Source of the DNA: Gammaproteobacteria bacterium
Lineage (GTDB): Bacteria > Pseudomonadota > Gammaproteobacteria > SZUA-152
Direction of reading: 5' to 3'
Assembly: GCA_021647505.1 (NCBI GenBank)
Contig: JAKIUN010000015.1
Location: 1-61,406, forward strand
Length of the DNA stretch: 61,406 nucleotides
How positions within the stretch are numbered: position 1 is the first letter of the stretch; the number at the start of each line of letters is the position of its first letter. Positions 37,281-51,706 of this stretch are shown piece by piece. Below the pieces are notes generated by a model, which worked only from the letters and a program-made list of their open reading frames with translations, was not told where the DNA came from and ran no database searches. The position numbers and the translations under genes are program-made.

Positions 37281-37883
37281 ATGAATAGACAGTTAGAACT
37301 GGGTTCTCCCACGCAGATCACCCTTGTCGCCGGCGTTGACGAAGTGGGCCGTGGCCCGCTGGCCGGGCCGGTGGTCACCGCCGCAGTGATCCTCGATCCG
37401 GCCCGTCCCATCAGTGGATTGGCCGACTCCAAGGCTCTCACTGAAAAACGTCGCGAGGCCCTGTTCGACGAAATTAGTGAAAAGGCCCTGTGCTGGGCAT
37501 TGGGTCGTGCCGAGGTCGAAGAAATTGACGAACTGAATATCCTCCAGGCCACCTTGCTGGCCATGCGCCGCGCCGTATTGGCCCTCGACCCAGCGCCACA
37601 GCACGCACTGATAGACGGCAACCGCTGTCCGGATTTACCCTGTAGCGCCGAGGCCATCATCAAGGGCGATGGCAGCGTGCCAGTGATCAGCGCCGCCTCC
37701 ATCATCGCCAAGGTGAGCCGTGACCGGGAAATGGTCGCATTGGATGCCGAATACCCCGGCTACGGCCTCGCCGGCCACAAGGGCTATCCCACCAAGGCGC
37801 ACATGGCAGCCCTGACGGAACTGGGCGTCACCCCCATACATCGGAAATCATTCGCACCCGTGCGGCGTTTGCTGGAGGGTTGA
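37281..37883 (+). CDS. rnhB: ribonuclease HII
   Basis: A 200-residue nuclease that removes ribonucleotides from DNA-RNA hybrids. The [16 protein letters not shown] motif holds the first Asp-Glu pair; [10 protein letters not shown] and [12 protein letters not shown] give the other active-site residues, and [19 protein letters not shown] is the conserved C-terminal part. It is the last housekeeping gene before the WYL/CRISPR region. The preceding 180 bases are AT-rich. Confidence 0.96.
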
Positions 37884-37924: not shown

Positions 37925-38557
<633 letters not shown>

Positions 38558-38794: not shown

Positions 38795-41236
38795 ATGGAT
38801 AATGAATACATGGCTTTCTTTCAGGCAGCTTTGGATACGAAAGATGCGCCCTATTCTTATCAAACCAGGCTTGCCACGGAGCCCTGGCCAGAGCTGCTGG
38901 ATATTCCGACCGGCCTGGGAAAAACCGCTGCGGTGGTGTTGGCCTGGTTGTATAAACGCCGCAATGCTGATCCCGGGACGCCACGCCGCCTGGTCTATTG
39001 TCTGCCCATGCGGGTGCTGGTGGAACAGACCCATGACAACATCGTTGACTGGCTGAAGCGCTTGAACTGTTTCGCAGATACGGTGGAAGAAAAAGGTATT
39101 TCAGTACATCGGTTAATGGGTGGGGAGGCAGATACCCGTTCCTGGGTGGAATACCCGGAAAAGGACATGATCCTCATTGGCACGCAGGACATGCTGCTGT
39201 CGCGAGCCTTGATGCGTGGTTACGGCATGAGCCGTTATCGCTGGCCCATTGATTTTGCTTTGCTGCACAACGATGCCCTGTGGGTCTTTGATGAAGTCCA
39301 GCTGATGGGGGCCGGTCTGCCAGCCTCGACCCAGTTGGAAGCCTTTCGGCGGCGGACGGATATGCCGGGCAGTGCAAAATCCCTCTGGGTTTCTGCCACC
39401 TTGAATCGTCAATGGTTTAACAGCATTGACCTCCGGCCGTATCTTGATTCCCTGCAATCCCTGACGCTGAGTGAGCAAGAGATACAAGGTTCGGCAGTCA
39501 GCAAGCGTCGAGAGGCTGTAAAGCAACTTTGTCAGACAGGGGTGGTGCTCGATGCGGAAACCAGCAAGGGAGGCGCGAAGACCTATCTCGAAGCATTGAC
39601 CGAAAATATCCTCGAAGCCCATAGTGGCGATGCCCCGACACTGGTCATCCTCAATAATGTGCAGCGTTGTCAGGGGCTCTATGAAAAACTGGCAAAACGA
39701 CTCAAGGGACAGGCGAATGCGCCGGAGTTGCTGCTTGTGCATTCCCGTTTTCGCCAGGCCGAGCGCACGGCCATCAATCAACGTATCCTTGGTATCAGTC
39801 CAGACGATAATGTGGTCGTCATCGCCACCCAGGCGATTGAGGCAGGCGTGGATATTTCCTCGCGCGTGATGTTTAGTGAACTGGCCCCCTGGTCTTCGAT
39901 GGTGCAGCGTTTTGGTCGTTGCAACCGTGCGGGTGAATATGATGAAGCACAGGTCTATTGGCTCGATATCATGTCAGGGGGAAAGCTGTCTCCACCCTAT
40001 ACCGATGATGAACTCGGTGATGCCCGTGACATCCTGGGCAGGCTTGAATCCGTCACAGCCGCTGATCTGCCCGCAGTCAAAAATACATTGCCTCTGTATC
40101 AGGTGATTCGACGCAAGGACTTTCTCGAACTGTTCAACACCGACCCCGACCTGTCCGGTTTTGATATCGATATATCACCCTGGATCAGGGATGGTGGTAC
40201 GCCGCCGGTGCAGGTTTTTTGGCGCGATTTTTCAGATACCCCAGACGAAGAGGGTGCACCACTACGGGACGAGCTGTGCCCGGTATCCATTGGTCAGATC
40301 AAGATCCATCTCAAAAAACGAAACGGCCTGGCCGCCTTTGCCTGGGATGCACTCGGTCGCCAATGGAGCACTGTTTCTGCCGACAATGTGCGCCCGGGCA
40401 TGACATTGATGCTGCGCTGTGCCGAAGGAGGGTATGACCTTGCGCGGGGCTTCATAGCGGGCTATCTCAACAAGAAACAGCCGCTGTCTGCACTGGAAGT
40501 CGTGACTGAAACTCAGGCTGCGTATGACGATGATCGCCGAAGCCTGCCTGGTTGTGCCGTAACACTGGCGCAACACCTCACCGATGTGCGAACCGAGGCG
40601 GAAAATCTTTGTGATCTCGTTGGTGAGTCTAGCGGCCGATCCTGTGTGACCCAAGCTGCGCAATGGCACGACGTAGGCAAGGCCCATCGCGCCTTCCAGA
40701 CCATGCTGCTGAATAACGATGAAAAGGCCGCAGAAAAGGAGTCTGAACTCTGGGCCAAGGGTGAGGCAAAAGGGCGTAGTTGCTACGCCGTCTGTGGCGG
40801 TACTGCTGGTTTTACCGAGCGCCGTCATTTCCGGCATGAACTGGTCTCCCTACTGGTATGGCTGGAACACGGCGACAGGGACGAGCACCACAACCTGATC
40901 GCCTACCTTATTGCGGCCCATCACGGCAAGGTGCGTATGGGCCTGCGCGCGCTACCGGATGAACAAGGGCCGGGGGATACGCGCCGTTTTGCACGGGGTG
41001 TGTGGGAAGGTGACAGCCTGCCCGCACTTTGCTTTGCTGACGAACAACTCCCTGAAACCATGCTTCGCCTGGATATCATGGAGCTGGGGGATGGAGCCAT
41101 GGGGGCGTCGTGGAGCACGCGTACCCAGCGCTTACTGCAACACCACGGGCCCTTCCGTCTGGCCTGGCTGGAAACCCTGGTGCGGCTTGCAGACTGGCGT
41201 GTCTCGGCACGCTACATCGGAGAGGATTCCGCGTGA
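38795..41236 (+). CDS. cas3: Cas3 helicase-nuclease, type I-G (helicase first, HD at C-terminus)
   Basis: An 813-residue protein. Helicase: Walker A IPTGLGKT at about residues 38-45, DEVQ at about 166-169, VVIATQAIEAGVDIS, and motif VI MVQRFGRCNRAGE at about 368-380. The HD nuclease lies at the C-terminal end, with QWHDVGKAHRAF at about 623-634 and AAHHGKVR further on. Helicase-then-HD order is typical of type I-U/I-G. It unwinds and degrades target DNA recruited by Cascade. The stop overlaps the next start, so translation is coupled. Confidence 0.93.
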   Translation: MDNEYMAFFQAALDTKDAPYSYQTRLATEPWPELLDIPTGLGKTAAVVLAWLYKRRNADPGTPRRLVYCLPMRVLVEQTHDNIVDWLKRLNCFADTVEEKGISVHRLMGGEADTRSWVEYPEKDMILIGTQDMLLSRALMRGYGMSRYRWPIDFALLHNDALWVFDEVQLMGAGLPASTQLEAFRRRTDMPGSAKSLWVSATLNRQWFNSIDLRPYLDSLQSLTLSEQEIQGSAVSKRREAVKQLCQTGVVLDAETSKGGAKTYLEALTENILEAHSGDAPTLVILNNVQRCQGLYEKLAKRLKGQANAPELLLVHSRFRQAERTAINQRILGISPDDNVVVIATQAIEAGVDISSRVMFSELAPWSSMVQRFGRCNRAGEYDEAQVYWLDIMSGGKLSPPYTDDELGDARDILGRLESVTAADLPAVKNTLPLYQVIRRKDFLELFNTDPDLSGFDIDISPWIRDGGTPPVQVFWRDFSDTPDEEGAPLRDELCPVSIGQIKIHLKKRNGLAAFAWDALGRQWSTVSADNVRPGMTLMLRCAEGGYDLARGFIAGYLNKKQPLSALEVVTETQAAYDDDRRSLPGCAVTLAQHLTDVRTEAENLCDLVGESSGRSCVTQAAQWHDVGKAHRAFQTMLLNNDEKAAEKESELWAKGEAKGRSCYAVCGGTAGFTERRHFRHELVSLLVWLEHGDRDEHHNLIAYLIAAHHGKVRMGLRALPDEQGPGDTRRFARGVWEGDSLPALCFADEQLPETMLRLDIMELGDGAMGASWSTRTQRLLQHHGPFRLAWLETLVRLADWRVSARYIGEDSA

Positions 41237-41745
41237 AACTGCGTACTCTTGAGGCTATTTTTCGCGCCCTTAACGAAGCCGGTGTGCGCTACCTGGTGGT
41301 TGGTGGCCTGGCAGTCAACGTCCATGGTTACCAGCGCCTGACCAATGATCTGGATCTTGTTATACAGCTCGGCCGCGATAATATCCTGGCAGCATTTCAG
41401 GCACTGTCTTCATTGGGTTATCAGACCTCGGTACCGATTACCCCCGAACAGTTTGCCAGTGCCGAGAACCGGCAAAAGTGGCAAGTGGAAAAAAACATGC
41501 AGGTACTCTGTCTGGTCAGCAACCGGCACCTGGAAACACCACTGGATATTTTTATCACCGAGCCCTTTGATTTCGACAGGGAATATGCAGCCGCATTGCG
41601 TGGTGGTATCGCCAAAGGGCTGGAAGTCCGCTTTGTCACTATTCCCACCCTCATTGCCATGAAAGAAACCGCCGGCCGGGAACGGGATCGGGACGATATT
41701 CAGCACCTGCGCTGGATTCTCGAGGAGCTGGAGAAAAATGACTGA
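41233..41745 (+). CDS. nucleotidyltransferase-fold protein (AbiEii/DUF6036-like) inside the cas operon
   Basis: A 170-residue protein. VVGGLAVNVHGYQR (residues 22-35) followed by TNDLDLVI gives the GG...DxD motif, with D39 and D41; D105 in PLDIFI is the likely third carboxylate. The C-terminal LIAMKETAGRERDRDDIQHL is typical of small nucleotidyltransferases related to AbiEii and MNT toxins. The GTG overlaps the cas3 stop by four bases, and its last eight bases overlap csx17, so it is built into the operon. Relatives include toxins that modify tRNA or proteins. I know of no such gene as a standard part of type I-G. Confidence 0.82.
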   Translation: MKLRTLEAIFRALNEAGVRYLVVGGLAVNVHGYQRLTNDLDLVIQLGRDNILAAFQALSSLGYQTSVPITPEQFASAENRQKWQVEKNMQVLCLVSNRHLETPLDIFITEPFDFDREYAAALRGGIAKGLEVRFVTIPTLIAMKETAGRERDRDDIQHLRWILEELEKND

Positions 41746-41926
41746 CAAGCCAAAAGATCCGAAATGGGAATCCGGTACATGGGCAGGCAGTCGCAGGGCA
41801 CAGCTGCGGGCAACACTTCGCTTGACCACACGCCAACGACTCGAAGCGCTGGAAACGCTCACAGATACCAGCCGCCATTTTGCCCAGATGCGACGTGCCG
41901 GAGAGTTTCACTATGGGGATCAAGCC
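41738..41926 (+). other. antitoxin-like N-terminal domain of the Csx17 fusion
   Basis: Residues 1-63 read MTDKPKDPKWESGTWAGSRR..., then LRLTTRQRLEALETL and RHFAQMRRAGEF. The pattern 'W.G.RRAQLR..L.LT..QRLE.LE' is one I associate with short (about 60-70 residue) proteins encoded beside AbiEii/DUF6036-type nucleotidyltransferases; that recollection is unverified. Here the small protein directly follows such a nucleotidyltransferase but runs on without a stop into Csx17. The domain is basic and helical, with no HTH seen. Confidence 0.55.
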
Positions 41927-44143
41927 ATGCATGAGCCGTCTGCCATTGCGCCAAAAGTAGGTGAGCCCGATACCGATTACGTGCTGGCTTCTGATGCAGG
42001 CAGATGCCGGGTACACCTGCACGGCTGTACGCCAACACCCTTGGCAAGCTATCTCAAGGCGCTGGCTATCCTGCGCCTGGTTGCCGAGCAGAAAGATGCC
42101 GAAGCCAGAGGCTGGTGGGAAGGTGAGCATTTTGTGCTGGAGAGCATGCTTGATGAAGAAGGATTAAAAGAGTTTTTCCTGGCGGAGTACAGACCAACGC
42201 CGATCATTGCGCCGTGGAATGGGGGGAGTGGATTTTATCCAAATGACAATAAAGACGGTATTTCCGCGCTGGAAAAATCTGATGATTCACGATTTCAGGA
42301 TTATCTGGAATCCATATCAATTGGAAGGCTGGGTGTTAAATCAATGGGATTATCTGAAAGTCCCAAAGATAAGGTAGTAAAGTCTAACTTTCTTATCTTG
42401 TTGCGCTCACAATTACCCGATGAGGCATTAGCCTGGATGGACGCGGCGCTTATGCTGACCAGTGACGACGTACGTTTCCCCCCATTGCTGGGTACGGGCG
42501 GAAATGATGGGCGCCTCGATTTCACCAATAACTTCATGCAGCGCCTGAATGATGTTTTTGACCTCTCAAGTAATAATGATGAACAAGCAAGTAATGCATG
42601 GCTGGATGAAAGCATATACCGGAATCCTCAACCTTTTTTGACGAGTAAAAAGGCTATCGGCCAATTTTCACCCGGGCAATCTGGTGGGCCCAATGCGGGC
42701 ACTGGCTACGAGGCTGAATCACTTATCAATCCCTGGGATTTTATTTTTATGATTGAGGGCGCGCTGCTGTTTGCCGCAGCGGCAACCCGTCGACTGGGGA
42801 GTGAAGAGCAGGGAGCCTTAACCTTTCCTTTTACAGTGCGTCCCAAGGGTAGCGGTCAGGGTGGTTTGAGTATGAGAGATGAAGCCCCTGCACGGGCGGA
42901 GATATGGTTGCCGTTGTGGGAAAGGCCGACCTCGCTAATGGCTCTCAAGGGCCTGTTTTCGGAAGGCCGCGTTACTTTGGGTCGCCGTAGCGTAAAGGAT
43001 GGCTTGGACTTTGCCAGAGCCATCAGCCTGCTGGCCGTTAATCGGGGTATCAATAGCTTTCAGCGATACGCATTCATGATGCGATCAGGCAAGGCATATC
43101 TTGCCACGCCGTTGACTCGTTTTCGCGTTCCACGGGAGCCTCAGCAAGATTTAATCAGTGAACTGGATCATTGGTTGTGGCGCTTTCAGGCCTGGGCGCG
43201 AGGGGACAATACACCCAACCGGGTCAAGAGCCTTGCGCAACGTCTGGACAATGCCCTGTTTGATCTGACTCGGCAGGGAGGTGACAAACATGACACCGTA
43301 CAAAAAACACTGATCCTTCTCGGCGAAATTCAGCGCTATGCGGGTACCAGCCCGGCGACGCAGGAAAAGGTGCCACCTGTGCCGGTTCTGAGTGAGCGCT
43401 GGTTCGCGGCGGCAAGGGATAACAGCATTGAATTTCGTATTGCAGCCGCATTGGCCGGACTGCAAGGTGTCAAAGAGCACCCACTCCCCATGCGAGTGCA
43501 CCTGTCACCACTTGATCCCAAAGAAGAAAAATACCCAGCTTGGTTACTGGAAGGGAAAAAACATCAGTACCGTACCTGGCACCACGGCGGGTTGGAGAAA
43601 AACCTTCTCGCGGTACTGGAGAAGCGTCTGTTGCTGGCACAGAAAGATGGGTTTGGCGATAAACCCCTGGGTGGCTGGCCTGGTGCGGATCTGGCGTCAA
43701 TAGCCACTTTCCTTGCTGGTGAAACAAATGACAATCGCATCACCCAGTTGGTAGCGGGGCTTGCTCATTGCCGATCGCCCAGACATATCGAATGGGAACC
43801 TGTTGAAAATTCCTTTGCCATTCCCGCCACATTCACCTTGCTTAAGCTGGTAATGACGCCCAACCGACAACTTCGACGTTGCGGCCTGCTGACGGAGAAC
43901 GAATATTTACCCATACCTGTTGGCCTGGTGCGACGACTTGCCGCAGGCCGTATCGACGATGCCGTCAGGCTCGCTCAACGGCGGCTTCGTATCGCGGGGA
44001 TATCGCCTCTACCGGGATCACCGGGCAGTGCCGGGTTGACGGGTTCCCGGCTGGCGGCGGCCTTGCTGATTCCCCTCAGCGATGTGTCGGTTCGAGACCT
44101 GTATCGCTCTATTTCCCAACAAAACAACAAACAAGCCTCTTGA
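41738..44143 (+). CDS. csx17: Csx17 (Cas8 of type I-G) with an extra N-terminal domain
   Basis: An 801-residue Cascade large subunit. The family body starts at about residue 92 (CRVHLHGCTPTPLASYLKAL) and continues with ARGWWEGEHFVL and EYRPTPIIAPWNGGSGF, all standard Csx17. Cas8-type subunits recognise the PAM and recruit Cas3. Residues 1-91 are not part of the usual protein and resemble a small antitoxin-like partner (separate entry). The start at 41738 has GGAG 4 bases upstream and overlaps the nucleotidyltransferase gene. An in-frame ATG at 41927 could give a canonical-length form. Confidence 0.9.
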   Translation: MTDKPKDPKWESGTWAGSRRAQLRATLRLTTRQRLEALETLTDTSRHFAQMRRAGEFHYGDQAMHEPSAIAPKVGEPDTDYVLASDAGRCRVHLHGCTPTPLASYLKALAILRLVAEQKDAEARGWWEGEHFVLESMLDEEGLKEFFLAEYRPTPIIAPWNGGSGFYPNDNKDGISALEKSDDSRFQDYLESISIGRLGVKSMGLSESPKDKVVKSNFLILLRSQLPDEALAWMDAALMLTSDDVRFPPLLGTGGNDGRLDFTNNFMQRLNDVFDLSSNNDEQASNAWLDESIYRNPQPFLTSKKAIGQFSPGQSGGPNAGTGYEAESLINPWDFIFMIEGALLFAAAATRRLGSEEQGALTFPFTVRPKGSGQGGLSMRDEAPARAEIWLPLWERPTSLMALKGLFSEGRVTLGRRSVKDGLDFARAISLLAVNRGINSFQRYAFMMRSGKAYLATPLTRFRVPREPQQDLISELDHWLWRFQAWARGDNTPNRVKSLAQRLDNALFDLTRQGGDKHDTVQKTLILLGEIQRYAGTSPATQEKVPPVPVLSERWFAAARDNSIEFRIAAALAGLQGVKEHPLPMRVHLSPLDPKEEKYPAWLLEGKKHQYRTWHHGGLEKNLLAVLEKRLLLAQKDGFGDKPLGGWPGADLASIATFLAGETNDNRITQLVAGLAHCRSPRHIEWEPVENSFAIPATFTLLKLVMTPNRQLRRCGLLTENEYLPIPVGLVRRLAAGRIDDAVRLAQRRLRIAGISPLPGSPGSAGLTGSRLAAALLIPLSDVSVRDLYRSISQQNNKQAS

Positions 44144-45124
<981 letters not shown>

Positions 45125-45128
45125 CGCC

Positions 45129-46646
45129 ATGCTGGCTATTGGATTCCGTTTTCTTGCCGGGCGTTATCATGCCAACCCTTGGGGGCGGCATGTCAACGAG
45201 GCAGATATCGAATGGCCTCCAGCACCCTGGCGAGTTTGTCGTGCCCTGATTTCCACCTGGTATCACAAGGCCGATCATCAAAGCTTTACCTTCGACCAAC
45301 TGGAAGCGATGATTGATGTTTTGAGTGAAACACAGCCCGTCTATGAATTGCCGCCAGCAGTACACACACACACTCGACACTACATGCCGCAGTGGAAGGG
45401 GAATGCTTCCCTGGTATTTGACGCCTTCGCCCGAGTGGATCCACAGGATGAGCTGGTAATGGCCTGGCCAGAATTGGAGTTGGCTAATGATTCGGTCATG
45501 TTACTGGACGAACTACTGCACAAGCTGGGCTATCTGGGCAGGGCCGAAAGCTGGGTAGAGGCTCGTCGTCTGCTCGATGAAGAACTCCCCGAAACATTCA
45601 CATGCCGGCCGGGCGAAAATGCGGTGGATACCGATACCGGCGAAGTCATGGGAGAAGTGGTGCGGCTGCTGGTGCCCCAGTCTCACCAAATCTACCGTCA
45701 ATGGCGGCGAAAATTTGCTGACAATAAAATTTCTGAACAAAAAGGAAAAAAGAAGAAATTACTGCAACAAACAACGCCTAAGAGTTTGACCAAGGCTCTG
45801 TGCCTGGATACTTCAGAGTTGCAGAAAGCGGGCTGGAGCCAGCCGCCCGCCGGGAAATTCGTTAACTATCTGCGCCCAGTGGACTGTCTGCGACCGAAGC
45901 GGGCAAGACCCAAAACGCGCACCCGGTCAGTGACCACCGCCCGTTTTATGCTGGTGGGTAAGCCTCTGCCGCGCATTGAAGATGCCGTCCGCATTGGAGA
46001 ACAATTTCGTGCGGCGCTCATGGGAAAAGCCAAATACGTGTTAGGTGGCGAGGGCAACATCCCACCGGAGTTATCCGGGCATGATCTCGGTCAGGGAAAT
46101 CGTCACGGCCACGCCTTTTACCTGCCCGAGGATGCCGACACCGATGGGCGTATTGATCATATCCTATTGCATGCACCGGATGGTTTGTCGGCATCGGCAC
46201 AGCGGGTGTTGGCTCGTATCAATATGTTTCGCGGTAAGCAGGGCCGGGAATGGCAGGTGATATTGGAGGGTGTCGGTACAACCGGTAATTTCTGCGCTGA
46301 CAGCCGCTACACCGGTGAGAGTTCCGTGTGGCAGTCCGTGACGCCCTATCTGCACCCGTGGTTCGCCAAGAAGCGGTTCACGCTGGAAGATCAAATCCGC
46401 CGCGAATGTCGAGAGAGGGGGTTGCCCGAACCAATCAAGATCGAGCGCCTGGAGAGCATCACGGTGAAAGGGCGCGCGCGCCGCGCCATTCACTTCCACC
46501 GCTTCCGTAACAAACGTGGCCTTACCCAGCCGGACACCCGGGGCGGCTTCCTGAAGTTGTACTTTGTAGAGCCTCTTGGCGGCCCGCTGGCGTTGGGCTT
46601 TGGCTGTCATTTTGGGTTGGGGTTGTTTCAGGTGGTCTCTGATTGA
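45129..46646 (+). CDS. csb2: Csb2 (Cas5-Cas6 fusion of type I-G)
   Basis: A 505-residue protein. The N-terminal Cas5-like part begins MLAIGFRFLAGRYHANPWGR and includes EWPPAPWRVCRALIS; the C-terminal RAMP half ends in a glycine-rich GGPLALGFGCHFGLGLF loop typical of Cas6. It should cap the crRNA 5' end and process pre-crRNA at the repeat hairpin. The ATG at 45129 is four bases after csb1. HGHAFYLPEDADTDGRIDH is the conserved central histidine region. Confidence 0.92.
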   Translation: MLAIGFRFLAGRYHANPWGRHVNEADIEWPPAPWRVCRALISTWYHKADHQSFTFDQLEAMIDVLSETQPVYELPPAVHTHTRHYMPQWKGNASLVFDAFARVDPQDELVMAWPELELANDSVMLLDELLHKLGYLGRAESWVEARRLLDEELPETFTCRPGENAVDTDTGEVMGEVVRLLVPQSHQIYRQWRRKFADNKISEQKGKKKKLLQQTTPKSLTKALCLDTSELQKAGWSQPPAGKFVNYLRPVDCLRPKRARPKTRTRSVTTARFMLVGKPLPRIEDAVRIGEQFRAALMGKAKYVLGGEGNIPPELSGHDLGQGNRHGHAFYLPEDADTDGRIDHILLHAPDGLSASAQRVLARINMFRGKQGREWQVILEGVGTTGNFCADSRYTGESSVWQSVTPYLHPWFAKKRFTLEDQIRRECRERGLPEPIKIERLESITVKGRARRAIHFHRFRNKRGLTQPDTRGGFLKLYFVEPLGGPLALGFGCHFGLGLFQVVSD

Positions 46647-46922: not shown

Positions 46923-46937
46923 ATATTGGTGTATGAA

Positions 46938-47765
46938 ATGGCAAAGAAAACACCCGATAACATCATCAAAATTCCTGATCGCCGGGCTATGGAAAATCTG
47001 ATGAAACCCTTCGGCAGGGCATCCCAAGATTCTGCCCTCGATGAAGCTCAGGAAATCATGTATCAAGCCTGGGAATCAGGTGACCCGGCTGAGCGCGTCG
47101 AACTGGCCGAGCGTGCATTACAGGTCTCAGCGGATTGCGCCGATGCCTGGACGCTGCTGGCAGAGGAAAGTGCGGACAGTCTGCCGCAGGCGCTGGCGTA
47201 CTACCAAAAGGCCGTTGAAGCCGGTGAGCGTGCGCTGGGCTCGCAGGCCTTCGAAGAAGACAAAGGCCACTTCTGGGGTTTGCTGGAAACTCGCCCCTAC
47301 ATGCGCGCCAGTCTGGGATTGGCTCAGTGCTTATGGGAAAAAGGCGACCGGAATGCGGCTATTCAGCGTTATCAGCAGATGCTGGAATTGAATCCCAACG
47401 ATAATCAAGGCGTTCGCCAAACTCTCTTAGGCTGTTTAATGGATGAGAAGCGCCATGATGAAGCTGAAGTGTTGATACTGGCATACCCGGACGACTGGAG
47501 TGCATGCTGGCGATATGCTCGGGCCTTGATCGCTTATCGCTATGAGCAGGACACGAAAAACAGCCGGGATTATCGCAAACAAGCGCTGGAGAGCAACAAA
47601 CACGTTCCGGCCTATCTTGCCGGAAAACGCAAGATGCCCAAATATCTGCCTGACTATGTGGGAGTAGGCGACAAGAACGAGGCTATTGCCTATGTACTCG
47701 ATAATCGGCAGGCCTGGCTGGATACACCCGGCGCTATTCCCTGGTTGCTGAAAGGCAAAGGGTAA
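46938..47765 (+). CDS. TPR protein, ST7-like, inside the cas operon
   Basis: A 275-residue soluble protein. TPR-type helices run from about residue 35 to 170 (ERVELAERALQVSADCADAWTLL and RASLGLAQCLWEKGDRNAAI). The C-terminal part, VPAYLAGKRKMPKYLPDYVGVGDKNEA, is the signature I know from the ST7-like TPR family. It is not a recognised Cas protein. It sits 15 bases before the cas4-cas1 start, in the same direction as the operon. The ATG at 46938 is chosen; a TTG at 46926 is the alternative. Its role here is unknown. Confidence 0.75.
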   Translation: MAKKTPDNIIKIPDRRAMENLMKPFGRASQDSALDEAQEIMYQAWESGDPAERVELAERALQVSADCADAWTLLAEESADSLPQALAYYQKAVEAGERALGSQAFEEDKGHFWGLLETRPYMRASLGLAQCLWEKGDRNAAIQRYQQMLELNPNDNQGVRQTLLGCLMDEKRHDEAEVLILAYPDDWSACWRYARALIAYRYEQDTKNSRDYRKQALESNKHVPAYLAGKRKMPKYLPDYVGVGDKNEAIAYVLDNRQAWLDTPGAIPWLLKGKG

Positions 47766-47779
47766 ACCTATCCCCGTCT

Positions 47780-49510
47780 ATGCAAATGGATACGAGCAAC
47801 CAAAGCCAGACACAGGTCGAACTCCCCCTGCCATTCCCCGAGCTTTCCGGTGATTTGCCCCTGCTGCCCGCGCGCATGGTCAACGAATACGAATACTGCC
47901 CGCGTCTGGCCTACCTGGAATGGGTGCAGGGCGAGTGGGCAGACTCGGGGGACACCGTGCAGGGTCGGCACATTCACCGCCGGGTGGACAAGCCTTCGGG
48001 TGATCTTCCTGACCCGCAGGCAGAGGAAGAAAATGAACGCTTCCACGCCCGCTCCATCACGCTGTCCTCCAACCGTCTCGGCCTGATCGCCAAACTGGAT
48101 TTAGTGGAAGGGGAGGGCGACACCGTCACCCCGGTGGACTACAAACGCGGCAAGCGGCCACACGTTGCCAAGGGTGCTTATGAACCCGAGCGGGTGCAAG
48201 TCTGTTTGCAAGGCATGCTGCTGGAAGAACACGGTTATCAATGTGAACAAGGGCTGTTGTATTTTGCCGGTTCAAAAGAACGAGTGAAAGTGATTTTTGA
48301 TGAAGAGCTGCGCAACCGAACGCTCTCCGCCATCAACGGCCTGCGCCTCATCGCTGTCGGCGGACAGATGCCACCGCCGCTTGAAGACAGCCCCAAGTGC
48401 AACGGTTGTTCCCTGGTTGGCATTTGTTTGCCCGACGAAGTCAATTTTTTGCGCGATGGTGGCGTCAATCCCCGACCATTAACGGTCGGTCGAGATGAAT
48501 CCCTGCCACTTTATGTGCAGGCCCATCGCGCAAAAGTGGCAAAGAAGGGCGAACGGCTTGAGGTTAGCATTGAAGACAAAGTGGTCACAAAAGTCCGTTT
48601 GATTGACGTATCGCAATTAGTGCTGATGGGCAATGTCTATGTCACCACACCCTGCCTCAATGAACTCATGCGTCGGGAAATTCCCATTACCTGGCATTCC
48701 TATGGCGGCTGGTTTTTTGGTCACAGCATTGGAACCGGGCATAAAAATGTCGAACTGCGAACCGCCCAGTACAAAGCGAGCTTTGACGAGCAAATCAGCC
48801 TGCGCATCGCCAAAATTCTGGTACACACAAAAATACTCAACAGTCGCACCCTGCTGCGCCGCAACTGGCGCGGCGAAGAAAAGCCACGAGATATTCTTGA
48901 AGGCTTGAAGCGCGACGCCACCCAGGCCCTGCGTGCTTCATCACAACAAACATTGCTGGGTATCGAAGGCGCCGCAGCCGCCCGTTATTTTTCCGCCTTT
49001 GGTGATACCATCAAACGGGAATCGGACGACAAGAACTTTGTCTTTGACTTCAAACTCCGCAAACGCAGGCCGCCGCCAGACCCGGTCAATGCACTACTGT
49101 CCTACGCATACAGCCTGCTGGCGAGAACCTGGACGGTTACCCTCAGCGCCGTCGGCTTCGATCCCTATCGGGGCTTTTATCACCAACCCCGCTACGGCCG
49201 TCCCTCCCTGGCGTTGGATATGATGGAACCTTTTCGCCCGCTCATTGCAGAATCCAGCGTACTGTCCGCCATCAATAACGGCGAAGTGCGGCCCAGCGAT
49301 TTTATCTCCGTAGCAGGTAGCGTTGCACTGACCAATGATGGACGAAAACGTTTTATCGCCGCTTTTGAACGACGCCTTAGCCAGGAAATCACCCACCCCC
49401 TGTTTGGCTATCGGGTCAGCTACCGGCGCATCCTTGAAATACAAGCCCGCCTGCTGGGGCGCTATCTACTGGGAGATATCCACGATTTCCCTGGCTTTAC
49501 TACACGTTAA
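47780..49510 (+). CDS. cas4-cas1: Cas4-Cas1 fusion (adaptation nuclease plus integrase)
   Basis: A 576-residue fusion typical of type I-G. The Cas4 part (about 1-220) has RMVNEYEYCPRLAYLEW and a closing cysteine set in CNGCSLVGICLPDE for the iron-sulfur cluster, with VTPVDYKRGKRP in the nuclease motif. The Cas1 part begins at about residue 230 (PLYVQAHRAKVAKKGERLEV) and ends DIHDFPGFTTR. Together they trim and integrate new spacers. The gene looks intact. Cas2 starts eight bases later. Confidence 0.94.
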   Translation: MQMDTSNQSQTQVELPLPFPELSGDLPLLPARMVNEYEYCPRLAYLEWVQGEWADSGDTVQGRHIHRRVDKPSGDLPDPQAEEENERFHARSITLSSNRLGLIAKLDLVEGEGDTVTPVDYKRGKRPHVAKGAYEPERVQVCLQGMLLEEHGYQCEQGLLYFAGSKERVKVIFDEELRNRTLSAINGLRLIAVGGQMPPPLEDSPKCNGCSLVGICLPDEVNFLRDGGVNPRPLTVGRDESLPLYVQAHRAKVAKKGERLEVSIEDKVVTKVRLIDVSQLVLMGNVYVTTPCLNELMRREIPITWHSYGGWFFGHSIGTGHKNVELRTAQYKASFDEQISLRIAKILVHTKILNSRTLLRRNWRGEEKPRDILEGLKRDATQALRASSQQTLLGIEGAAAARYFSAFGDTIKRESDDKNFVFDFKLRKRRPPPDPVNALLSYAYSLLARTWTVTLSAVGFDPYRGFYHQPRYGRPSLALDMMEPFRPLIAESSVLSAINNGEVRPSDFISVAGSVALTNDGRKRFIAAFERRLSQEITHPLFGYRVSYRRILEIQARLLGRYLLGDIHDFPGFTTR

Positions 49511-49518
49511 CAAGAGCA

Positions 49519-49809
49519 ATGGAAGAAAGGCTCTATATCGTTACCTACGACATCGCCGACCAGCGGCGCTGGCGTGCCATATTCAAACTCATGAATGGCT
49601 ATGGAGAATGGTTGCAACTATCTGTCTTTCAATGTCGTCTCAGTCGCAAACGGCATGCCGAAATGCTGGCCACCCTTGACGAACTTATCCACCATAGCGA
49701 GGATCACATTTTACTGCTTGACTTGGGCATTGCTGACCGAGTAGATCCTCGCGTCGTCAGTCTGGGTAAGGCCTTCGAAGCCGTAAAGCGCGAACCTGTG
49801 ATTGTTTAA
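49519..49809 (+). CDS. cas2: Cas2
   Basis: A 96-residue ferredoxin-fold protein that bridges Cas1 dimers in spacer integration. It opens MEERLYIVTYDIADQRRWRAIFKLM, with the conserved aspartate after TY, and contains WLQLSVFQCRLSRKRHAEM. It is the last cas gene; the CRISPR leader begins immediately downstream. Confidence 0.95.
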   Translation: MEERLYIVTYDIADQRRWRAIFKLMNGYGEWLQLSVFQCRLSRKRHAEMLATLDELIHHSEDHILLLDLGIADRVDPRVVSLGKAFEAVKREPVIV

Positions 49810-49940
49810 TAACGAGGTGCATCCCCATGCCGATTACTGCCGATGAAATGCGAGTGCTGGGATGGCGGCCAAATCACCGGGAAGCACTCGCAAATGTGTA
49901 GTTCTTTGAAAATTTGGAGAAAATCGGGTTTTGTAGTCGC

Positions 49941-49971
49941 TGGACAAGCGGCCTGGAATGTGAGTTATAAT
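49941..49971 (+). promoter_or_regulatory. probable CRISPR leader promoter
   Basis: TATAAT at 49966-49971 and TGGACA at 49941-49946 (19-base spacing, long) lie in an AT-richer stretch between cas2 and the first repeat. It would start pre-crRNA about 60 bases before the array. Just before repeat 1 are two AGGCCT hexamers (50019-50024 area and 50031-50037 area) that could be a leader-anchoring element. Confidence 0.4.
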
Positions 49972-50037
49972 CAAAATTCGCCACTGCTCGCAAAGTACGT
50001 GTCTGGTAAAGTAAATCCAAGGCCTCTGCAAAGGCCT

Positions 50038-50145
50038 GTTATCCGTGGCAAAACGCCACGGCCTCATTGAAGCACACGGGCCAAGTCTTTATTCAGGAGG
50101 TATGGTCTGGTTATCCGTGGCAAAACGCCACGGCCTCATTGAAGC
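50038..50145 (+). CRISPR. minimal CRISPR: two 36-bp repeats, one 36-bp spacer
   Basis: Identical 36-bp repeats occupy 50038-50073 and 50110-50145. They begin GTTATCCGTGGC and end CCTCATTGAAGC; CCGTGGC and GCCACGG form a 7-bp stem with an AAAAC loop. The single spacer is 50074-50109, beginning ACACGGGCC and ending TATGGTCTG. No third repeat follows within the window. Repeat length and hairpin suit a type I system, and the cas2 gene is 228 bases upstream. The array is interrupted soon after by an inverted-repeat element. Confidence 0.9.
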
Positions 50146-50177
50146 CCGGTTAATCAATTACGGTGCAATTACCAATT

Positions 50178-50449
50178 ACAATTACGGTGACAGTTTACTA
50201 AATACACTTAACTGTCACCTGGATAAAGGGGGGCGTTACCAATGCCATTAAGTTAAGCCTGAGCCCCTGCTTGTTGTAGGTTGGTGGTGAGCCTGCGAAC
50301 CCCAACGAAACCAACAATGTTGGGGTTCCTTCGTCACCGCCAACCTACAAACAGTCGTGATTTTGTTAACTTAATGGCATTAGGTAGCATCTCCTTATTC
50401 CCCCCCCCCGGCATAAAATAGTATATTTAGTAAGCTGTCACCATAATTC
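50178..50449. mobile_element. composite inverted-repeat (MITE-like) element next to the CRISPR
   Basis: GGTGACAGTTTACTAAATAC (50186) and the complement of its near copy (50421-50442, CTGTCACC at the right) form long imperfect terminal inverted repeats. Each is flanked by related AATTAC/AATTAT text. The left end also folds on itself with AACTGTCACC at 50210-50219. It contains a family B unit and a run of ten C at about 50401. No transposase is present. I associate the GGTGACAG ends with IS200-like/REP transposons, at low certainty. Confidence 0.5.
50239..50383. repeat. palindromic repeat, family B, copy 2
   Basis: Terminal inverted repeats CCAATGCCATTAAGTTAA (50239) and TTAACTTAATGGCATTA (ending 50383) enclose TGTAGGTTGGTGGTG/CACCGCCAACCTACA. 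Copy 1 at 12874 keeps the right terminal repeat but not the left. The ends faintly resemble IS4-family termini. Confidence 0.65.
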
Positions 50450-50536: not shown

Positions 50537-50860
50537 ATGGGCACCTTTACCGTAAGAGACTTGCGCGAGCGCACTGGGGAGCTGATCCGGGATGCCGAGA
50601 CGGGTGAATTGTCCATCGTGACGAAACATGGCCGACCCGTGTTTATCGCCATTCCCTTTGATGAAAAGGTAGTGGAATCCGGCGTGTCAATGGCTCTGGC
50701 TGTAAAACTCTACGAAGAGGAGGTGCTGAGTCTGGGCAAGGCCGCCAAGTTTGCGGGTTGCCCGGTGATGGAATTTACCGAACGTCTCAGCAAGGCCGGC
50801 ATATCCAGTGTTCGTTATTCGGCGGAAGAGTTGGAAGCGGAGTTGACTGCCATTGGCTGA
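50537..50860 (+). CDS. antitoxin: Phd/YefM N-domain fused to UPF0175 C-domain
   Basis: A 107-residue protein. Residues 1-45 follow the Phd/YefM pattern (FTVRDLRERTGELIRDAETGE then KHGRPVFIAIPF); residues 50-100 follow UPF0175 (ALAVKLYEEEVLSLGKAAKFAG...FTERLSKAGI). UPF0175 genes are usual partners of DUF3368 PIN-like toxins, and that gene overlaps here by eight bases. GGAAGG at about 50523-50528 provides the ribosome-binding site. It likely represses its own promoter through the Phd domain. Confidence 0.82.
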   Translation: MGTFTVRDLRERTGELIRDAETGELSIVTKHGRPVFIAIPFDEKVVESGVSMALAVKLYEEEVLSLGKAAKFAGCPVMEFTERLSKAGISSVRYSAEELEAELTAIG

Positions 50861-51326
50861 ATCGAGGGGTCGGGTGGTCGTCGCCGATACCGGGCCTCTG
50901 ATAGCCTTTGCACGGCTTGATCTACTGGCGTTGTTGCCGGATATGCTCGGTATCCTGTTGGTGCCCGACGTCGTGTTGAGCGAGTGTCTCTATGTTCCTT
51001 CCCGGCCGGATGCGAAGGCGATTCAACGGGCCATGGATGCCGGGTTACTGGAGATTCGGGCCGCGCAATTTTCCCTCGCTGACGATTGGCCGTCTGCGCT
51101 GGGTATGGGTGAGCAGGCGGCTATCCATCTGGCGCAGAAGTTGGGGTGCCAGATATTGATGGATGACAAACTGGCACGGCGGACTGCCGCCTCGATGGAG
51201 CTGCATGTGATTGGAACGGCCGAGGTGCTCATCAAGGCGAAGCGGCTGGCAAGGATCGAGGCCGTTGCACCCCTGCTGCATACCTTGCAGGCATCCGGTT
51301 ATCACTTAGGAACGTGCACGAAATAA
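50853..51326 (+). CDS. PIN-like (DUF3368) toxin
   Basis: A 157-residue protein. VVVADTGPLIAFARLDLL gives the first PIN aspartate, VVLSECLY the glutamate, GMGEQAAIHLA the next Asp/Glu region, and LMDDKLARRTA the DD pair. PIN toxins cleave RNA. It starts TTG within the antitoxin gene. It completes a TA pair downstream of the CRISPR. Confidence 0.82.
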   Translation: MAESRGRVVVADTGPLIAFARLDLLALLPDMLGILLVPDVVLSECLYVPSRPDAKAIQRAMDAGLLEIRAAQFSLADDWPSALGMGEQAAIHLAQKLGCQILMDDKLARRTAASMELHVIGTAEVLIKAKRLARIEAVAPLLHTLQASGYHLGTCTK

Positions 51327-51330
51327 CATC

Positions 51331-51406
51331 TGGCCGTGTAATACCCCGCTTTCGCGTAGCGAAAGTCGAGCGTTAGCGAGATACTTGCTGCGGGGTAGTT
51401 TATTTC
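51331..51406. repeat. repeat family D, copy 2
   Basis: Nearly identical to 32981-33057, starting TGGCCGTGTAATACCCCGC with the TTTCGCGTAGCGAAA palindrome and ending GCGGGGTAGTTTATTTC. It starts five bases after the DUF3368 stop and may act as its terminator. Between 51407 and 51706 I see no gene. Confidence 0.75.
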
Positions 51407-51706
51407 TGGCCTGCCTATGACGACTGAATATCCTGAAACGACCCCAGGGATGCACCCAATCCCATGCCAAACACAACGCCGTCCAGAGACAATACCGAGG
51501 AATGTAGATGGAGGTCAAAACCCGAGCATAATTGGCGAACAGCGGTAACCGGACAAAAGAGCTGCGGATGGCAAGTCATGAAGAAACAGCCAGCGACGAT
51601 CATGCTGTTGGGCGTTGGTTGACTAGCTCTGGGGATCGTGAGGCACTACGCCTTCATCAAATACCACTCGCAAAGCGGGTGGCATTTAATGAAAATCCAG
51701 ACCGAG

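Follow-up and report, generated by a model that had tools for sequence, protein, structure and literature searches.

The window analyzed in this study, a stretch of 61,406 nucleotides from a gammaproteobacterial contig (JAKIUN010000015.1), contains a type I-G CRISPR-Cas locus followed by a two-repeat array, a composite repeat element, and a toxin-antitoxin (TA) pair (Table 1; G, C, and L numbers below denote genomes, contigs, and loci). All six cas genes scored above their NCBIfam cut-offs, and both NCBIfam and PADLOC assigned the locus to type I-G. The signature effectors Cas8g/Csx17, Csb1, and Csb2 are present, together with Cas3g, a Cas4-Cas1 fusion, and Cas2. Compared with the two copies in the same-genus genome G002, the cas genes contain no stops and show dN/dS values of 0.03-0.14 where these are computable; relatives share the helicase and HD motifs of Cas3 and a conserved Cas4-Cas1 sequence. 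To judge from these properties and the leader, the locus looks maintained rather than pseudogenized. To judge from its sequence, the type I-G locus is complete and apparently under constraint, which agrees with the original prediction of a complete cas set with intact adaptation and effector genes.

Similar to the type I-G (formerly I-U) systems with a Cas4-Cas1 fusion in Geobacter sulfurreducens and Methanosarcina barkeri (PMC10504553), the window combines cas3g, cas8g/csx17, csb1, csb2, cas4-cas1, and cas2 with a 36-nt hairpin repeat and a leader beside cas2. It differs from them in its one-spacer array, in its extra nucleotidyltransferase and TPR genes, and in the upstream WYL regulator without a helix-turn-helix (HTH) domain. 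The DUF2204 nucleotidyltransferase gene lies between cas3g and cas8g in the window and in G002, and a homolog in G004 (L125:11213-11719) is found between the WYL gene and a type I-E cas3; the gene was not detected in the type I-G locus of G006. The TPR gene between csb2 and cas4-cas1 (L041:7173-7623 in G002) carries an internal deletion in one G002 copy.

The WYL gene is located directly upstream of cas3g, and five same-genus genomes keep it at full length. The window's copy has lost about 370 bp in frame, and short matching sequences border the deletion; Pfam detected HTH_11 in the G002 homolog and not in the window's protein, where the WYL and WCX domains remain. WYL regulators are known companions of defence islands (PMC9122601). 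The loss of the HTH suggests that regulation of the locus may be altered.

Table 1. Features of the type I-G locus and the adjoining region, with positions in the window.
Feature	Position	Strand	Remarks
rnhB, conserved left anchor of the genus CRISPR site	37281..37883	+	DNA 85-89% identical in 5 same-genus genomes, beside WYL
WYL-WCX regulator, N-terminal HTH deleted in frame	37958..38557	+	199 aa vs ~324 aa in relatives
cas3g helicase-HD nuclease	38795..41236	+	TIGR02621, 794 bits; helicase and HD motifs conserved
Nucleotidyltransferase-like accessory gene (DUF2204)	41218..41745	+	also in both G002 type I-G loci
cas8g / csx17	41738..44143	+	TIGR04113, 732 bits
cas7g / csb1	44147..45124	+	TIGR02570
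csb2 (cas5-cas6 type)	45129..46646	+	TIGR02165, 222 bits
TPR protein	46926..47765	+	found in relatives' type I-G loci too
cas4-cas1 fusion	47780..49510	+	NF049935, 834 bits; dN/dS 0.03 vs G002
cas2	49519..49809	+	TIGR01573; PADLOC Cas2g
CRISPR leader	49810..50037	+	motifs GCGAGTGCT, GCACTCGC, CTTTGAAAA, and GCTCGCAAA kept in relatives (alignment)
CRISPR repeat 1	50038..50073	+	36 bp
Sole spacer	50074..50109	+	36 nt; no target found
CRISPR repeat 2	50110..50145	+	36 bp, 100% identical to repeat 1
Stretch after repeat 2	50146..50179	.	34 nt; trailer, or junction sequence with AATTAC(GGTG) duplications
Outer element, 29-bp GGTGACAG inverted arms and left hairpin	50180..50449	.	similar end precedes a RAYT-like coding sequence elsewhere in the genome
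Inner MITE, ends CAATGCCATTAAGTTAA / TTAACTTAATGGCATT	50240..50382	.	~143 bp; ~40 genome copies; ~10-bp target duplications at several copies
TA promoter/operator region with palindrome TTGCGCTATCATTTGATGGCGCAA	50488..50536	+	paired changes vs relatives
Phd/UPF0175 antitoxin	50537..50860	+	homologs inside relatives' type I-E operons
PIN-like (DUF3368) toxin partner	50853..51326	+	matches PADLOC candidate PDC-S70

The array and the arrays of relatives

As originally predicted, two identical 36-bp repeats enclose one 36-nt spacer (50038-50145). The repeat folds into a 7-bp hairpin and is a bona fide type I-G family repeat, which occurs with few base differences at two same-genus loci and in a Sedimenticola MAG; together with the conserved leader it forms the cognate array of the locus. 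The statement that no further repeat appears was upheld for the whole 3.74-Mb genome: a pattern search allowing up to 3 mismatches, in which a control pattern gave 0 matches, found only the window's two copies and no fossil type I-G repeat beyond 50145. An array served in trans was rejected, as this search found no other copy of the repeat in the genome. For the 34-nt stretch that follows repeat 2, no homology was found.

The type I-G arrays of relatives comprise 11 to 59 repeats. At the same locus in G002, the same repeat (1-2 changes) forms one array of at least 14 copies, which runs into a contig end, and one of 11 copies. The G008 array has 17 repeats and the Sedimenticola array 59; 58 repeat matches were found in the G049 stretch covering the array end, part of the array head lying outside this stretch. 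The window's spacer is not among the listed G002 spacers, and neither a shared spacer nor a fossil repeat from the lost part was found. The original prediction also read the intact last repeat as a sign of truncation. The last repeats of relatives vary, however: at the four readable array ends, two are intact (Sedimenticola L059 and G049) and two are degenerate (G002:C165 and G008), so an intact terminal repeat is not diagnostic of truncation. The two type I-G loci of G002 (C130 and C165; L042 and L041), whose Cas4-Cas1 proteins are 94-95% identical to the window's, belong to one MAG, and their contigs begin at the same cas3 position; this may reflect a duplication or two co-binned strains.

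The spacer has no detectable target among the phage, plasmid, and self sequences, including the window's own TA genes, that the original prediction had considered. No target was found in its own genome. Against phages and plasmids, only 22-nt matches at chance level were obtained (E about 5); these lie in lysin genes of enterobacterial phages. Exact scans of three sub-stretches against IMG/VR gave one 18-nt match, which was rejected because it extends to just 21 of the 36 bases. Self-targeting of the TA genes was also rejected; the window holds no seed of at least 8 nt outside the spacer itself. Spacers without a recognizable target are common in environmental bacteria.

Since the leader and repeats are intact, as are Cas4-Cas1 and Cas2, the locus, if expressed, should yield one processed crRNA, and new spacers could in principle be inserted at the leader end. 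For the type I-G Cas4/1 fusion, directional prespacer integration into a plasmid carrying a leader and one repeat has been described (PMC10504553); two repeats would thus be enough for the array to grow. From these sequence features, we infer that the type I-G system may be active at present. The locus offers a clean case of a CRISPR system that is complete in its genes but nearly empty of spacers, which raises the question of whether such a system is being lost or can fill its array again.

The composite element beyond the array

The original prediction placed a MITE-like element about 32 bases after repeat 2 and held that it had cut the array. An element is indeed present, although it consists of two nested elements instead of one and begins 34 to 40 bases past the repeat: the 29-bp inverted arm starts at 50180 (34 bases) and the GGTGACAG terminus at 50186 (40 bases). 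The outer arms (50180-50208 and 50420-50448) are 90% complementary over 29 nt and have GGTGACAGTTTACTAAAT ends, which occur at five other sites of the same genome; the outer pair is rarer than the inner MITE. At L009, an outer-type end is followed by a frame that, as judged by reading the sequence, resembles the C-terminus of a RAYT (Y1) transposase. A genome search with the inner element returned 63 matching pieces, many of them both strands of one copy, from which about 40 separate copies are estimated. Most of the best 30 are 93-98% identical. Target duplications of about 10 bp are recognizable at several copies and poorly conserved at the window's copy. The nested structure implies at least two insertions. 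The outer element is similar to REP/REPIN sequences with RAYT transposases (PMC3116915) in its palindromic end pair and in the similar end that precedes a RAYT-like coding sequence; it differs in being interrupted by a nested, unrelated high-copy MITE and in having few outer-end copies.

A cut made by the element finds no support in this arrangement. The element lies 34-40 nt past the last repeat and interrupts neither repeat nor spacer, and no array resumes beyond it. Thus, the element marks the boundary of the array and cannot be shown to have made it. Since it combines a high-copy MITE with a RAYT-type palindrome pair around it, the element may postdate the loss of the array.

The toxin-antitoxin pair and the type I-E operons of relatives

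The antitoxin and its PIN-like partner both match the PADLOC candidate PDC-S70. A search of 24 family genomes revealed close antitoxin homologs in seven other genomes, and in six of these the homolog separates the cascade genes from cas1e within a type I-E operon (G004, G015, G013, G001, G017, and G016, the last one degraded; loci L125:3220-4159, L133:2603-3380, L134:9658-9975, L136:4056-4376, L137:7011-7764, and L147:1504-1713). The PIN-like partner was detected in three of the six loci, and was not detected in G013 and G001. The seventh homolog, in G020, is not beside cas genes and adjoins a gene that reads as orn. Upstream of the antitoxin, the operator palindrome TTGTGCTATCATTTGATGGCACAA is conserved in most homologs; the window keeps it with paired changes (TTGCGC...GCGCAA). 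In the same-genus genome G004, the lpxB-rnhB-WYL site corresponds to that of the window. There, a nucleotidyltransferase gene is followed by a complete type I-E operon with the TA pair between cas6e and cas1e, and then by cas1e and a type I-E array of about 30 repeats.

In the window's own genome, no Cse1 and no type I-E repeat were found, and there is only one Cas1. The tblastn and repeat searches around the TA pair detected no remnants of cas6e, cas1e, or type I-E repeats. Because the homologs are linked to type I-E and this genome is without type I-E, the sequence between the type I-G array and the TA pair has probably been deleted or replaced. The DNA identity of the TA pair to G004 is 77%, compared with 87-90% for rnhB, WYL, and lpxB, so independent transfer of the pair is possible. 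The pair is absent from the G002 contigs examined. Carriage as a common plasmid passenger was considered and rejected, as only two distant plasmid matches were found.

The Phd/UPF0175-PIN pair may tentatively be viewed as an integral component that recurs in the type I-E operons of this family, perhaps an addiction or abortive guard module, which here would have outlived the loss of the type I-E genes as an orphan beside the one-spacer type I-G array. This recurrence inside type I-E operons is a more interesting side result than the array itself and deserves a wider survey. To the right of the pair, repeats common to other sites of the genus are located at 51330-51405 and 51503-51597, which leaves the pair with repeats to its left and right. 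A second antitoxin copy, a fragment of about 31 amino acids with a stop, was found elsewhere in the same genome (G000:C115:155-250).

History of the site

The locus is an unexceptional example of array loss, and its local history is instructive. It is fairly probable that the array was cut back to its leader-proximal end and that its distal part was lost together with a type I-E operon. A type I-G and a type I-E locus would once have stood side by side at this site. A deletion or cassette replacement that began within the type I-G array and stopped just short of the TA operator would have removed the distal array and the type I-E genes and left the TA pair behind as a type I-E relic, with the composite RAYT-type/MITE element now at the junction. 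The original prediction that the distal array was removed or displaced therefore stands as the best reading, in the form of a probable loss, given the longer arrays of relatives and, as the strongest evidence, the type I-E relic next door. We infer the deletion, how far it extended, and when it happened relative to the elements; the deletion itself is read solely from absent sequence, as no type I-E remnant lies beside the TA pair. The ancestral order (type I-G, then type I-E with the TA pair) is assembled from different genomes because the G002 contigs are without the pair, and no genome found has the whole order. The window may thus show two CRISPR types trading places at one chromosomal site.

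The array may also have been shortened by ordinary homologous recombination between identical repeats, with the TA pair and the elements as separate arrivals. Spacer deletion is frequent in all CRISPR types, with a median of 374-fold the per-site mutation rate and joint deletion of about 2.7 spacers (PMC11472070). The window is similar to such spacer-depleted arrays, having an intact leader and repeats with most spacers gone. The intact last repeat is what these events leave, the element is a nest of widely inserting repeats, and one TA homolog, that of G020, has no CRISPR link. However, recombination leaves unexplained why the pair is located in type I-E operons in six of the seven other genomes, in G004 at this very locus, and we regard it as rather unlikely; the loss in the window probably ran past the array into the neighboring type I-E operon, which distinguishes it from known spacer-depleted arrays. 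It is still less probable that the array is young or rarely updated, having gained one spacer since the type I-G cassette arrived and lost nothing. The leader and adaptation genes are complete, and a single acquisition beside one founder repeat would give two identical repeats. Against this, G001, G002, and G006 all carry the type I-G locus at the same rnhB-WYL position, which means that the genus has not acquired it recently, and the readable sister arrays are long.

Two further explanations are very improbable. One attributes the short array to an assembly error at the element, through a collapse, which was a concern named with the original prediction, or through a chimeric join. The inner element occurs in dozens of copies, and contigs do break there: L058 (JAJRRA010000019.1, MAG Dive100_bin2.37) ends 11 nt inside it. 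The same contig aligns to the window over 4413 bp with 2 mismatches (47407 and 47882) and, past the two repeats and the spacer, reaches into the element. The assemblies of two different MAGs therefore agree, which makes collapse unlikely; moreover, arrays with unique spacers are not normally prone to collapse. Among the relatives, none was found with the same two-repeat array and no element. The other explanation, a regulatory mini-array that steers the effector complex to a host promoter in the manner of CreTA/CreR, is just as hard to credit. CreTA units typically have one or two repeats (PMC9458426), and a TA module beside or within cas genes is common to these CRISPR-guarding toxin-antitoxin RNAs and the window. 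In CreTA, the repeats are degenerate and the spacer partially matches the toxin promoter, whereas the window's repeats are identical, their position after cas2 and the leader is canonical, and the 61-kb window has no second match to the first 8 nt of the spacer, leaving no seed match at a local promoter. The adjacent pair is a protein Phd/UPF0175-PIN system, not an RNA toxin, and it shows no sign of regulation by the CRISPR effector.

Type I-G and type I-E sequences also adjoin in two relatives. In Sedimenticola (L059), a type I-E-like repeat is located about 400 nt beyond the type I-G array. In G002:C165 (L041 10616-11000), the last type I-G repeat runs directly into the 3' end of a WYL gene, and a type I-E-like cas3 comes next; this junction is a second CRISPR rearrangement involving a similar site.
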